Shown here piece by piece: positions 31,149 through 61,079 of a stretch of 64,000 nucleotides of DNA. The position numbers and the translations under genes are program-made. Every line of letters starts with the position of its first letter. Position 1 is the first letter of the stretch. The DNA lies in assembly GCA_025766275.1 (NCBI GenBank), contig JAFKAC010000091.1, forward strand, positions 124,001-188,000. The letters are read 5' to 3'. The notes beneath the pieces were generated by a model. It made no database searches, was not told where the DNA came from, and worked only from the letters and a program-made list of their open reading frames with translations. This DNA comes from Lactarius indigo (taxonomy: Eukaryota; Basidiomycota; Agaricomycetes; Russulales; Russulaceae).

Positions 31149-32443
31149 TCAAACCCCTGGTCTTACATCCGTAGCGAAGGGGTAATCTGTATATCCCTTT
31201 GCACCTTGGGCCAACCATGTCTTTTGATCGTCTCGTGCGAGTTCGATGTTCTCTTTTAAGCGGCGTGGCAGATCAGGCTGTCAGAACAGACCAATCAGTG
31301 GGCGCTGAGACGGGATATGAGGTGGTCGACACCAACATTCGATATAAAGTAGCGTCCGAACGAGACGAGGCCGCCTTCTTTCTCGACCACCTCTATGGCT
31401 GTGTCGCGCTTATAGAGCCCATTAGTGATGTACGGCCTATCGCCCCATATGTCGCGCAAGAACTTGGTCGGCCGCCTCGTCACAGTTTCGCCAGATCCCG
31501 GCGTTATAGCGACGTCAGTGATCTCGATGACATGGAGGTACGCAAAGTCGGGATAGCTGTCGCGGATGCGCGTGACGAGTTCTGTATACGTCGGGATCGG
31601 GTCAGACATACCCATCCCTGGAAAACATGCGTCGTCCATTATCATCAACAATAACCCGACGCAAGTGGGTGAAAACTTACCCTGTAATTTCAGATACGGG
31701 CTGATACGTATGCCCACTTTGTTCGCGCCAACTGCCTTGACCACCACATCTGTAACTTCCAGAACGATGCGCAGCCGGTTCTCGATCGAGCCGCCGTACT
31801 CGTCCGTCCTCGTGTTGGTAACAGGCTGAAGGAACTGGTCCAGGAAGTAGCCGCCATTCACTTGAAGCTCCACTCCGTCGAACCCCGCTTTCTGCACCGC
31901 GTTTTCTGCGGTGGTCGCGTACAGCTGCACGTATTCCTTGATCTCTGCGACTGTCAGCGCGCGCGGCGTCTCGTAGCCTTCCAGCGCAATTGCGCTCGGC
32001 GCGACGACCTCAAAGCCGCCCGCTTTCCGAAGGATGTCGCCATCAGCTGCACGCCCGAGGGCCCACAGCTGGACATAAATGAACGATCCGTTTGCGTGTA
32101 CCGCGTCTGTGATCTACAGAGTAAAACAACACCTCAAATAAACGTCAGAGAAGAAAGGTAGGTATACTAAGCGAACCGATTTCCACCCCGCGATCTGCTC
32201 ATCGGACCAGATGCCGGGGACGTTGGCACACCCGCCTGCGTGCGGGGCAATGACCGTTGCCTCGGTGATGGCGAGAGTGCCCGGGGTGCTGGTGCGCTGC
32301 TTGTAGTATTCGAGGCCGAGCGCACCGTGGACGTATCGCTCGTCGGCGCGGGTTCGCTTCATGGGAGCCAAGACGACTCGGTGCCGCAGGTTGAAGGTGC
32401 CAACCTGGATGGGCTGGAATAATTTTGGGACGGGAGCGGCCAT
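31149..32443 (-). CDS. Old Yellow Enzyme-family NADH:flavin oxidoreductase, copy 1
   Basis: Exons 31149-31277, 31337-31617, 31681-32113, 32177-32443 (369 aa). It begins MAAPVPKLFQPIQVG and ends PFATDVRPGV. The FMN-barrel motif TRTDEYGGSIENR is intact, as are GTLAITEATVI and FGRYFISN. In Saccharomyces OYE1 the substrate carbonyl is held by His191 and Asn194, with Tyr196 as proton donor. Here the matching stretch is ELQVNGGY, so His is Gln and Asn is Gly, while Tyr is kept. OYE1 Thr37, which contacts the flavin, corresponds to Lys in LAPMKRTRA. Family members reduce activated C=C bonds. The gene is tail-to-tail with CTP1 (124 bp apart), and that pair appears to be the ancestral arrangement for the copies to the right. 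Confidence 0.88.
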
Positions 32444-33172
32444 CTGAACTATGCGGAGCAGGAGACGCAATCAACGATTTTGGAACGGCTCGCAATTTAT
32501 AGGGAGCATGTCTTTCAGCAATGATGATTGCCAACTATAATGGGCGCATGATGTGGGCCGAATCTGGTGTGGAATTGCAGAACCGAGGTCAGCCTCGAGA
32601 GCTCGAGAGACGCCACTAATGTGGTCGCGCCGTGAGCGCAGGAGTCGAGCTCCAACATTAGGTAATGGTTGGACAAATTCTTGGAGTCGGGAACCCGAAA
32701 CCATGAAAATATGAGGGGACGACTGAGATCAAGGACGTATTGAGGCACTGTTTTACATGAGCAACCATGTAAGTCCCATGGCCATGGAATTTTTGATTTG
32801 CTCATGCGGCCTACGGCCTGAGCTCCTGAAAGTCCTTCTCCATACGCGTGAATTGATCGAGCAGAGCAATTGGCATATCTATGAAATATCAGACATGGCA
32901 GAGGGAGGAAAGATGGAAACACCCCGTGCCAGTGAAAGTGATGACCCAATTTGACGTACCACTGTTATTGTCACGGTTTCGGCAATTATATAATTACTAA
33001 GTTGTCTAAATCTGTACTGCTTGCTTTGTAGTTTCTATGCTACATGGGCTCGCATATTATCTGACATTTGTTAATCTACAACACTAACGAAATAGATACA
33101 AGTAAATCTATCTGAATACACGGACTTCCGACAGAGCCTGAAGGTGTGGACAAGGTATCGCACCCCGCCACC
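32444..33172. other. Intergenic region upstream of OYE copy 1
   Basis: Part of it (about 32510-32660) resembles the flanks upstream of OYE copies 5 and 6. The remainder holds only short frames without recognisable content. Confidence 0.4.
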
Positions 33173-34229
33173 CTATCTCGACCGGCGTCGCTTCCTTGTG
33201 CCCATATTGGCCAACTCCGCGGTCGCCAGCGAGCGTCGTCGAGGCGCACTATCAGGCCAATCACTAGACCCAGAGTCGGGTGCGTCTAGTGGTAGCAAGA
33301 CAAAGCGTCAGGTCGAAATATTCGCGAGTATCATTATGACGATGTCTTACCTGCATCTCCACCATCTTTCGCTAGCTCTTCGCGTTTGCGCCCATTGTTA
33401 GGCGTGCGAGAGGTAGTTGCTGGTGAAGCCGGCCCGGGAACGAGATGGTTCCGGCGCTCTGCCCAGTACGCAACGTCTAAGGGGGGCGCAAAGAGCGGAT
33501 CGAGCCATTGCTTGACGGCATCCATGCCTTGCTCCCTGAATAGCCCGCCTACGTAGGCCTGTATTAATATTCAGAAGGTCCCCACACGCTCCGAGAAGGC
33601 AGGTACCTTAAACACATCCACTTTGGATAGGACGAGAGGTTAGGGGTCATGCAAGAGGCGATGATATGCATAGTAGCCATACCTTGCACGCTCTGAGAAG
33701 CTTTAAGATTGGGAAATTGGGTTCTCAGACTTTCATGAAGACCATACCGCACCGCACTTGGAGCACAGACACGTTAGCGCTGCTTAATTAAAAGGAAAGG
33801 GCATATTACATTTCCGCGAGGGCGGATCCACGCTTGATGCGACTTCGTAATTGCTGGTTCGTCAGTGGTGAAAAAACAGAGACAATGGAAGGGACGATGC
33901 AGCGACGGACTGAGGTGGGACCAACACGTAAACGCGGATAGCGGCCGTGGATGAGGTCAGTAATAGCCAAGCTAACTACCTGGTCCCCGATGTGTGCCAA
34001 TCTCACAGATCATTCAATCAATCGGATTGACAAAAGAGAGTAGAACGGCAAACACACTCTTCGTTATCGCGGCTTGGAGTATCTCGAGGCGCTTCAAACT
34101 CACCCCGGCGCTTCGCGGTCAGACTGCTGTGGGTGAATATTTGCTCCCGAGTCTGTGCTGACTGTATTTTTGGAAGGGGCGGCAGTGTGTTAGTTTCAAC
34201 AACTGGGCTTGCAACTGGGAACGACGGAG
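33173..34229 (-). CDS. RNase III-domain protein, probably catalytically inactive (5' end unresolved)
   Basis: Exons in genomic order: 33173-33285, 33351-33558, 33607-33620, 33683-33756, 33810-33853, 33911-34001, 34058-34229, all in phase. The start exon was not found. Domain order: LPPLPKIQSAQTREQIFTHS, then LAHIGDQVVSLAITDLIHGR, RYPRLRVGPTS, LAEIAVRYGLHESL, VDVFKAYVGGLFREQG, and a basic C-terminus ending RKRRRSR. In RNase III the catalytic acids lie in the motifs LEFLGD and DxFEAYVGAL. Here the first Glu is Ala (LAHIGD) and the last Glu is Lys (DVFKAY), leaving two of four. It could serve as a non-cleaving RNA-binding or dimer partner. A 14-bp microexon joins two conserved blocks. Confidence 0.75.
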
Positions 34230-59512: not shown

Positions 59513-59929
59513 GCAAACGGGACGTAATATGGTATCTTCGTTGACTTAGCGATGTAAACGTGACGATTCCTTTGTTTACTGTACATTCTTACTGGATTGA
59601 TTCGCCGAAACCAATATTATGCTGCGAAATCATACGCGCGTTCCCTCCACTTCCGAAATTCCGGTCATACTATATGACATGTTAACTATTATCACGCAAC
59701 CGCTGCCAACTCGTGTTCCCTTAGAGACAGTCAAGTTCATATCGACTACCATACAGGTGTTCAGCGATGAGGGTCACTAAGGCTGTAGAATTCTTCTATA
59801 GGGTGCTCCGAGGAATGGGCCAGCCTTCAGTAACGGCTCTTCGAAGTCCCGGCCTTTGCCTCTGCGGCAAAGGGATAGTCAGTATATCCCTCGGCGCCTG
59901 TGCTATAGAGTGTCTCGCATTTAGGTTGT
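59513..59929. other. Region between NLR-1 and OYE copy 6
   Basis: No gene. A weak remnant resembling the CTP1 3' end and OYE 3' flank (AATTCTTCTATAGGG to AAGGGATAGTCAGTATATCC) appears from about 59765. Confidence 0.45.
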
Positions 59930-61079
59930 GCGAGCTCGATGTTCTCCTTCAGGAGATCAGGCTGTCAAAACGGACTAATCAGTGCGGAGTTCGACGTGAA
60001 TCGGACCAGTCGATACCGACATTTGCGATAAAGTGGCGCGCAAACGAAACGAGGCCGCCTTCGTTCTTGATCGTCTCCACAGCGGAGTCGCGCGCAAGTC
60101 GGTATTAGCGATGTACGGCCCGACGCCCCATATGTCGCGTAGGACTTTGTTTGACGCTCCACTTGAGTTGTCACTGGCGGGAGGGTCCAAAACGTGGATG
60201 TATGCAAAATCAGGATGATTGTCGCGGATGCGCGTGACGAGCTCTGCATACGTCAGGATCGGGTCCGGCATCCCTATCCTTGAAAACTGGCGTCGTCCAT
60301 CCCCATCAACAGCAGCCGACGTAAGCGGGGAAACAAACTTACCCTGTAATTTCAGATACGGGCTGAAACATATGCCGACTTTATTCGCTCCTGCCGCTTT
60401 GACCACCGCGTCCGTAACTTCCAGTACGAAGCGCAGACGGTTCTCGGGCGAGCCGCCGTACTCGTCCGTCCGCTTATTCGTGACGGGCTGGAGGAACTGG
60501 TCCGGGAGGTAGCCGCTTGCCGAGCGGATCTCAACTCCATCGAACCCCGCTTTCAACACCTCATTTTCTGCGGCGGTCGCGTATAGCTGCACTTATTCCT
60601 TAATCTCTGCGACGGTCAGCGCGCGCGGCGTCTCGTGGCCCTCCAGTGTGATGGCTCTCGGCGCGACGGCCTCGTAGTCGCCCGCTTTCCGGAGGATGTC
60701 GCTCTCGGTTACACGCCCGAGGACCCAGAGCACTGAATAAATGAACGATCCATTTGCATGTACCGCGTTCGTGATCTAAGAAAACAATAGGAAAAAAAAC
60801 GTCAGAGAAGAAAGGTAAGCGAACCGATTTCTACCCCGCGATCTGTTCGTCGGAACGGATGTTGGTGGATCCGCCTGCATGCAGGGCAATGAACATTCCC
60901 TCGCTGATGGCGAGAGTGCTGCAGGTGCTGGTGCGTTGCTTGTAGTATTCGAGGCCGAGCGGACCGTGGACATATCGCTCGTCGGCGCGGGTCTGCTTCA
61001 TGGGATCCAAGACGACTCGGGTGCTGCAGGCTGGCGGTGCCAACCTGGGCTGGAATAGTTTTGGGACGGGAGCGGCCAT
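59930..61079 (-). pseudogene. Old Yellow Enzyme-family oxidoreductase, copy 6 (dead)
   Basis: Same exon layout as the other copies, but damaged. Exon 1 has small deletions that garble the segment after LFQP and remove part of the VPGIW region, and its last Trp codon is TAG (60831-60833). Exon 2 has a TAA in place of a Tyr codon (60593-60595, GAA-TAA-GTG). Exon 3 is frameshifted after VRD-type sequence. The remaining active-site stretch reads EIRSASGY (His to Arg, Asn to Ser), and the barrel motif is TNKRTDEYGGSPENR. Confidence 0.85.

Follow-up and report, generated by a model that had tools for sequence, protein, structure and literature searches.

A tandem array of OYE-family genes in Lactarius indigo points to flavoenzymes with a remodelled active site

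Described OYE-family enzymes and the layout of the array

OYEs are widely used biocatalysts. In OYE1, the substrate carbonyl is held by His191 and Asn194, Tyr196 is the proton donor, and residue 37 sits close to the flavin's O4/N5 edge. In the fungal OYE EasA, a chanoclavine-I aldehyde reductase/isomerase, the outcome is decided by Tyr or Phe at the Tyr196 site, according to PMC4303823, and the residues are given as His173, Asn176 and Tyr178 in PMC8954901. Recently, searching fungal OYEs for an altered active-site motif led to new chemistry in the case of SubF, a non-canonical (Y196F) Aspergillus OYE described as a propellane synthase in PMC13107220. The same two anchor residues that concern us here were changed in the engineered OYE1 mutants H191N and H191N:N194H (PDB 1bwk and 1bwl).

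The window, by which we mean the whole 64,000-nucleotide stretch of L. indigo DNA analysed, carries six OYE copies on the minus strand (W1 to W6 for copies 1 to 6). In spliced models they run from position 61079, the ATG of copy 6, to position 31149, the end of the copy 1 stop codon. A seventh copy, which is canonical (Thr37, HAANGY), lies 3 kb beyond the window edge. The original prediction of six copies with one changed motif therefore needs amending, since there are seven copies, one of them canonical, and the change covers residues 37, 191, 194, 196, 250 and 375.

Residues were assigned by alignment to OYE1, whose reference sequence corresponds to PDB 1oya_A at 400 of 400 residues. Thr37 is replaced by Lys in all six window copies. 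W1 (31149–32443; four exons, with introns at 32176–32114, 31680–31618 and 31336–31278) reads QVNGGY (31847–31864) in place of OYE1 191–196, with Leu at both Phe250 and Tyr375. In W2 (40536–41793; introns 41526–41476, 41042–40981 and 40705–40647), His191, Asn194 and Tyr196 are all replaced (IAAGGF, 41209–41226), Phe250 is Leu and Tyr375 is Gly. W3 (45413–46685; introns 46418–46368, 45934–45872 and 45596–45538) has QSVGGY (46101–46118), Glu250 and Trp375, and W4 (48006–49285; introns 49018–48965, 48531–48469 and 48193–48135) has QSAGGY (48698–48715), Ile250 and Trp375. W5 (50080–51358; introns 51091–51042, 50608–50552 and 50267–50209) retains His191 with Ser194 (HSASGY, 50775–50792), alongside Leu250 and Trp375. 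W1–W4 have thus lost the Thr37 contact together with both carbonyl anchors, while Tyr196 is kept in W1, W3, W4 and W5 and is Phe only in W2 among copies 1–5.

W6 (59845–61079) is a chimeric pseudogene, its N-terminal half being array-like and its C-terminal half resembling copy 7. Its model contains three frameshifts, in-frame stops at 60831–60833 and 60593–60595, and a second intron in a different phase from that of copies 1–5. It reads RSASGY (60509–60526), and Q114 and R243 are gone as well.

Together with its flanks, the segment aligns with OYE1 191–196, which upholds both the six motif readings and the homology on which the original prediction depended. The neighbouring RTDEYGGS motif is indeed constant in all six window copies, and the allele of copy 6 in the second haplotype reads RTDEYSGS. 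Compared with classical OYEs (yeast OYE1/OYE2, PF00724), the array differs at T37, H191, N194, F250, Y375 and sometimes Y196. A published set of substrate residues (PMC4002455) includes five that can be aligned and a sixth, 296, which falls in a loop where OYE1 (Phe296) and the array copies do not align. The variability of the five in copies 1–5 was matched by only 384 of 200,000 random five-codon sets, these being unmatched for conservation.

Agreement between haplotypes

Contig C227, which represents the other haplotype, carries alleles of all seven copies, and the six-residue motif is identical in each, a strong argument against assembly or reading error, which we reject as the source of the motifs. 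As in the window haplotype, copies 1–5 on C227 have open frames and conserved introns, three per copy with identical positions and phases, as had been claimed for five of the six frames. Neither haplotype has an intact copy 6, and the two share its stop at 60831 as well as the frame lesions near 61046 and 61020.

One could see the tandem array as decaying towards pseudogenes, with the motif as just one of many degenerating sites. The state of copy 6 fits such decay, as do the altered C-terminal ends of copies 2 and 3: the W2 protein is six residues shorter than W4 at this end, and W3 has a frameshift near 45426 that affects only the last residues. Against it stand the intact frames and introns of copies 1–5 in both haplotypes, the omega of 0.23 seen between paralogues over most of the protein, and the allelic omega values, which are 0.16 for W1, 0.06 for W2, 0.04 for W3, 0.06 for W4 and 0.18 for W5 at dS of 0.02–0.09. 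These allelic values indicate that the genes are not decaying; copies 1–5 are under purifying selection, whole-gene decay is ruled out for them, and decay as the explanation of the array is highly improbable. Among the allele pairs of W1–W5, none of 26 replacement differences falls in the pocket, which carries little weight because fewer than one is expected by chance.

The Lactarius clade and the flavin site

In the tree, the array copies fall inside a clade of 29 sampled rows (support 99/98) whose named members are all Lactarius, from ten named species. His191 is absent from 17 of 230 scored proteins, and all 17 belong to this clade, in eight Lactarius species (231 proteins were retrieved; P0090 was unmatched by the pattern, and the fused P0001 was scored on its first domain only). 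Among rows with T, S or A at residue 37, His191 is present in 91/91 and Asn194 in 86/91. The motifs are thus not a basidiomycete standard, an explanation that is ruled out for the proteins retrieved.

Within the clade, residue 37 is Lys, rarely Arg or Met; residue 191 is Gln, Leu or Ile in most rows; residue 194 is mostly Ser or Gly; and residue 196 is Phe, Leu or His in some, with Phe, as in W2, in a few rows only. Residue 250 is mostly non-aromatic (L, I, V, A, E, M, T or Y are seen), and residue 375 is mostly Trp (W, L, G, V, M or E). Residue counts are for rows selected by residue 37, five of the 28 clade rows being alleles of window copies; they leave aside OYE1, W6, H1–H7, P0001a, P0033, P0034, P0038, P0111 and rows of 330 residues or fewer, as well as P0039 and P0093, whose residue 37 is not T, S, A, K, R or M.

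W2, the window copy scanned at full length, matches PF00724 (Oxidored_FMN) over residues 7–338 with 299.6 bits (gathering cut-off 27); an NCBIfam scan gave only weak matches, below the curated cut-offs. The family's FMN-binding barrel fold was found in the modelled protein, P0005 (an allele of W3). EasA (PDB 4qnw) was the best Foldseek match, and the two OYE1 mutants were among the nearest structures. W116 and the contacts Q114, R243 and R348 are kept in the clade, and most of the FMN contacts (P35, T37, G72, Q114, R243, G324, G347 and R348) are kept in most of its rows. Ala replaces G347 in 6/28 clade rows and P35 in 2/28, and flavin-side residue 325 is highly variable (G 10, S 9, N 6, L 2, A 1).

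These findings suggest that the array and its relatives are naturally occurring enzymes whose substrates or chemistry have changed, since the pocket residues are swapped differently in nearly every copy and the remainder is conserved. We consider them probably to be FMN enzymes whose active site has been remodelled into a non-canonical form on an intact barrel, kin in kind to the EasA isomerase and SubF. The likeness to SubF is that of an OYE with an altered active-site motif, discovered by seeking that alteration; SubF was chosen by Y196F, whereas the array loses His191 and Asn194 and gains Lys37 (SubF as given in PMC13107220). Unlike W1–W4, EasA retains both anchors, as described in PMC8954901. 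The replacements in the array, unlike those in the engineered OYE1 mutants, are natural and accompanied by further ones at residues 37, 250 and 375.

Alternatively, these may be ordinary xenobiotic ene-reductases in which the substitutions are tolerated, so that enals, enones and nitroalkenes would still be reduced with altered preference. The intact fold and main flavin contacts are consistent with this, as are the three of 29 clade rows that keep both His191 and Asn194, the several others with His191 and Ser194, and the fungal OYEs outside the clade (P0096, P0150, P0168 and P0187) that have Gly or Ser194 with His191 kept. The fragments P0111, P0141 and P0151, which lack residue 37 and stand outside the tree, combine Ser or Gly194 with His191. 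However, the confinement of His191 loss to this one clade among the 230 scored proteins and the simultaneous loss of three contacts in W1–W4 both argue against such an assignment, which we regard as doubtful. It overlaps with the remodelled-site reading where substrates alone have changed, and our estimates for the two are not exclusive.

Selection on the pocket and possible roles

Codon tests were run on L. indigo sequences with preset residue sets, namely an eight-codon pocket set picked after the variation was visible and the five-codon set from PMC4002455; the last 7 codons (clade) and the last 12 (control) were omitted. Between paralogues, omega is 1.14–1.18 at pocket codons versus 0.23–0.24 elsewhere (p 5e-8 and 9e-6 for the two sets). 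Canonical paralogues, used as a control, tend the opposite way, with p values of only 0.049 and 0.055. The excess of pocket omega over 1 is not significant (p 0.30), and positive selection is not supported. The full FMN set (11 codons) has an omega of 0.28, like the remainder of the protein; without 37 and 325 the value is 0.14, and the difference is not significant (p 0.27). Of the 184 columns conserved in 19 T/S37 rows, which include six of the eight pocket columns, the mean number of changes in the clade is 0.94, versus 3, 0, 5, 5, 6 and 6 at the pocket columns (p 0.0007; the zero is W116). A rate-ratio test also scores the pocket high (p 0.002), but the FMN contacts score high in it too (p 0.003), and it is discounted since its ratio is inflated at conserved columns.

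Two alternatives had been proposed, a binding site diversified for new substrates and relaxed selection on classical ene-reduction. The first fits, with the pocket changing, Q114, R243 and R348 unchanged, and the genes under purifying selection; the second fits only narrowly. As omega in the pocket lies near 1, with no demonstrated excess, the two are not separated, and the data are also compatible with a pocket that has lost its constraint and gained no new function. Were use of the pocket as an enzyme lost, its residues would drift and the protein might be kept for flavin storage, as a scaffold or as a binding partner. The many states at 375 and 250 and the variability at 325 agree with such drift, but the retention of W116, Q114, R243 and R348 does not, nor do the motifs shared by all seven allele pairs (at dS of 0.02–0.09, little change would be expected over such a small number of codons) or the recurrence of identical motifs across species: QTTGGY in L. 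deliciosus and L. akahatsu, QVTGGY in L. sanguifluus and L. pseudohatsudake, and HSASGY in six named species. We therefore think drift in an unused pocket unlikely.

If the active site is remodelled, the proteins would still bind and reduce FMN, and an enone carbonyl would no longer be held through His191 and Asn194 in the manner of OYE1. Lys37 would place a positive charge close to the O4/N5 edge of the flavin and could tune the flavin or help to anchor a new substrate. P0020 and P0033, which have Met37 and lack His191 and Asn194, indicate that Lys37 is not an obligatory replacement anchor. The copies may differ in what they act on or in the reaction that results (reduction, isomerisation, desaturation or cyclisation). 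W2, the most radical, also lacks the proton donor Tyr196, as do the EasA isomerase and SubF.

Azulenes are sesquiterpenes of orange-and-blue milk caps. The clade may be a lead to enzymes by which Lactarius makes or converts sesquiterpenes, and a tentative extension, which we judge rather unlikely, is that it comprises natural non-ene-reductase flavoenzymes with new outcomes on such compounds, for example azulenes, duplication having produced a panel of pocket variants stepwise. Given the loss of both anchors and a lysine next to the flavin, these outcomes would be isomerisation, desaturation/aromatisation or reductive cyclisation. Nine ORFs near the array were scanned: matches were to HEM4, a piece of a GMC oxidoreductase, NACHT and winged-helix, ankyrin, a short piece of a P450 and DUF6535, and two ORFs had none. 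No biosynthetic partner genes were recognised in this partial annotation. A search of the literature on Lactarius genomes, azulenes and OYEs, covering few subscription papers, found nothing on this array or on Lys37 in OYEs.

For a single origin of Gly194, p-AU was 0.21 (tree without P0033, P0034, P0038 and W6), which neither establishes such an origin nor rejects it. This value was weighed against the remodelled-site reading, together with the variable residue 325, Ala at G347 and P35, and the lack of recognised partner genes.

Clade members with K or R37 and intact His191/Asn194 exist, and from such combinations we infer an order of replacement in which 37, 250 and 375 would have altered first, then Asn194, then His191 and Tyr196. 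The clade makes it possible to ask whether an OYE without His191/Asn194 is workable and how Lys37 affects the flavin. A natural series leads from the canonical copy 7, through P0012, which has K37 with intact anchors, to W1–W4, in which both anchors are lost; judged by named rows, it falls within one genus.

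Pocket residues of the array copies

In OYE1, the substrate carbonyl is held by His191 and Asn194, hydride comes from N5 and a proton is donated by Tyr196 (PMC5825115); replacements at positions 37, 191/194 and 196 are described as affecting the half-reactions (PMC6194350). Substrate contacts are listed as H191, N194, Y196, F250, F296 and Y375, and FMN contacts as P35, T37, G72, Q114, R243, G324, N325, F326, G345, G347 and R348 (PMC4002455). The array copies were aligned to an OYE1 reference sequence identical to 1oya_A over 400/400 residues, with F296 left out as a position without reliable alignment. 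The segment that the original prediction had placed at residues 191-196 is indeed homologous to them in the MAFFT alignment. From copy 1 to copy 6, H191 corresponds to Q, I, Q, Q, H and R and N194 to G, G, G, G, S and S, and Y196 is replaced (by F) in copy 2 only. T37 is Lys in 6/6 window copies; in the same order, F250 corresponds to L, L, E, I, L and L, and Y375 to L, G, W, W, W and Y. The motif changes first noted are real, and the change to the pocket is both wider than first described and unusual.

Array layout and copy 6

Spliced alignment recovers the six OYE copies first noted, all of them minus-strand genes at window positions 31149..61079, but the array does not end there. A seventh copy with canonical residues (T37, HAANGY, Y250, Y375) lies ~3 kb past the window's right edge, at C283:192359-191061 in the contig's own coordinates (extracted locus L009, 4359-3061). 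The assembly holds two haplotypes, and each of the seven copies has an allele on contig C227. Three introns occupy identical places and phases in copies 1-5 and 7, and the second intron of the broken copy 6 was modelled in a different phase. Intron 3 (e.g. window 48193-48135) has the donor GTTGGT, or GTCGGT in copies 6 and 7; two public models, P0021 and P0022, continue into the intron and so end in altered or short C-termini.

Copy 6 (59845-61079) is a pseudogene, broken in both haplotypes. Its N-terminal half is closest to the array copies, matching copy 5 at 79-88% by block versus 54-74% for copy 7, and its C-terminal half matches copy 7 at 86-90% versus 53-66% for the array side, so that it looks like a chimera produced by recombination of an array copy with copy 7.

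Between copies 1 and 2, ~5.9 kb (34434-40383) are without counterpart in the matching C227 stretch (L013 501-6200). A segment beside the OYE genes occurs twice (42630-43879 and 52051-53294, 84% identical), and a P450 match (53689-53922) lies shortly past the second occurrence; these segments are possibly P450 remnants duplicated along with the array. NACHT-type (NPHP3_N) and ankyrin ORFs lie between copies 5 and 6 (57036-59512), and a piece overlapping the NACHT ORF (56921-57277) repeats at 44687-45015 (81%).

Distribution and probable order of the changes

Three protein searches returned 231 proteins among the matches listed, of which 230 were scored. H191 is absent from 17/230, all named Lactarius (indigo, 4; akahatsu and vividus, 3 each; deliciosus and pseudohatsudake, 2 each; sanguifluus, hatsudake and hengduanensis, 1 each), and for what was retrieved its loss appears specific to this genus. 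In some other scored proteins N194 alone is replaced, by Gly, Ser, Lys or Tyr, and H191 is always retained. The motif is also a departure from the standard: among 91 rows with Thr, Ser or Ala at 37 (retrieved proteins plus copy 7), H191 is kept in 91/91, N194 in 86/91, Y196 in 82/91 and Y375 in 86/91, the remaining five at 375 being Phe. At 19 further L. indigo places, modelled from the best candidates of a genome search, His191 is present in 19/19. Residue 194 is Asn at 17 of these places, and the other two, both distant relatives (C237, C259), have His. One place, on contig C1, is a further member of the clade described below (R37, HAGNGY).

In a tree built without eight pocket columns, the 29 rows with Lys, Arg or Met at 37 form one clade (support 99/98), nested in a 100/99 group together with Thr37 rows from three genera, Lactarius, Lactifluus and Russula; a second tree separates 25 full-length clade rows from four Thr37 rows (100/100). 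Thirteen of the 17 H191-less proteins are rows of this clade; the remaining four, from indigo, are alleles of copies 1-4, which themselves belong to it. Intact His and Asn accompany K37 or R37 in P0012, C1 and P0017 (P0012 and another clade row, P0018, are metagenome-derived), other K37 rows have His191 with Ser194, and every row without H191 has also lost Asn194. This nesting of residue combinations suggests that 37, 250 and 375 changed first, then 194, then 191 and 196. Placing the G194 rows in a single clade was not rejected (p-AU 0.21).

Judging from matches on equally long contigs, there are probably further arrays, with 4 members in vividus, 3 in akahatsu and 2 in each of hatsudake, deliciosus and pseudohatsudake; hengduanensis and quietus probably have a Thr37 copy adjoining K37 copies. 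The L. quietus protein P0001 carries two OYE domains in 635 residues (HSAIGY, then HSASGY) and may be a gene-model fusion. In both haplotypes, a Thr37 paralogue of L. indigo (L020 and L021, on C270 and C156) carries Gly at the position of Trp116 (LQLGSLGR); replacing this Trp in OYE1 alters selectivity (PMC6194350).

Selection and possible function

Allelic omega (dN/dS) is 0.16, 0.06, 0.04, 0.06 and 0.18 for copies 1-5, 0.34 for the pseudogene copy 6 and 0.06 for copy 7; pairwise omega among paralogues 1-5 is 0.21-0.36. A two-class codon model (home-made likelihood code, fixed tree shape, one species, gene conversion possible) was applied to 11 L. indigo sequences: copies 1-5, their alleles and C1. 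Eight pocket codons of our choosing (37, 82, 116, 191, 194, 196, 250, 375) gave omega 1.14 versus 0.23 in all other codons (LRT 29.6, p 5e-8), with no significant excess above 1 for these codons and sequences (p 0.30). The five alignable substrate residues of PMC4002455 gave 1.18 versus 0.24 (p 9e-6). The FMN set (11 codons) was similar to the rest at 0.28, and at 0.14 without 37 and 325 was not significantly lower (p 0.27). Nine Thr37 L. indigo sequences leaned the opposite way in the same test (pocket 0.04 or 0.03 versus 0.13; p 0.049, 0.055).

By analogy with other OYEs, the K37 clade may keep flavin chemistry and change substrate hold and outcome, differently by copy. The blue of L. indigo comes from an azulene ester, and the H191-less species presumably belong to section Deliciosi. 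The link between H191 loss and azulenes is a correlation over few independent events. Azulene-type sesquiterpenoids are made by L. deliciosus (PMC8705726), and an L. hatsudake azulene paper is an entry in the reference list of PMC9713418. In EasA, Tyr or Phe at the Tyr196 site decides between reduction and isomerisation (PMC4303823). The propellane synthase SubF was found through a search for Y196F; restoring Tyr lowers its product by <10%, which argues that the wider pocket matters (PMC13107220).
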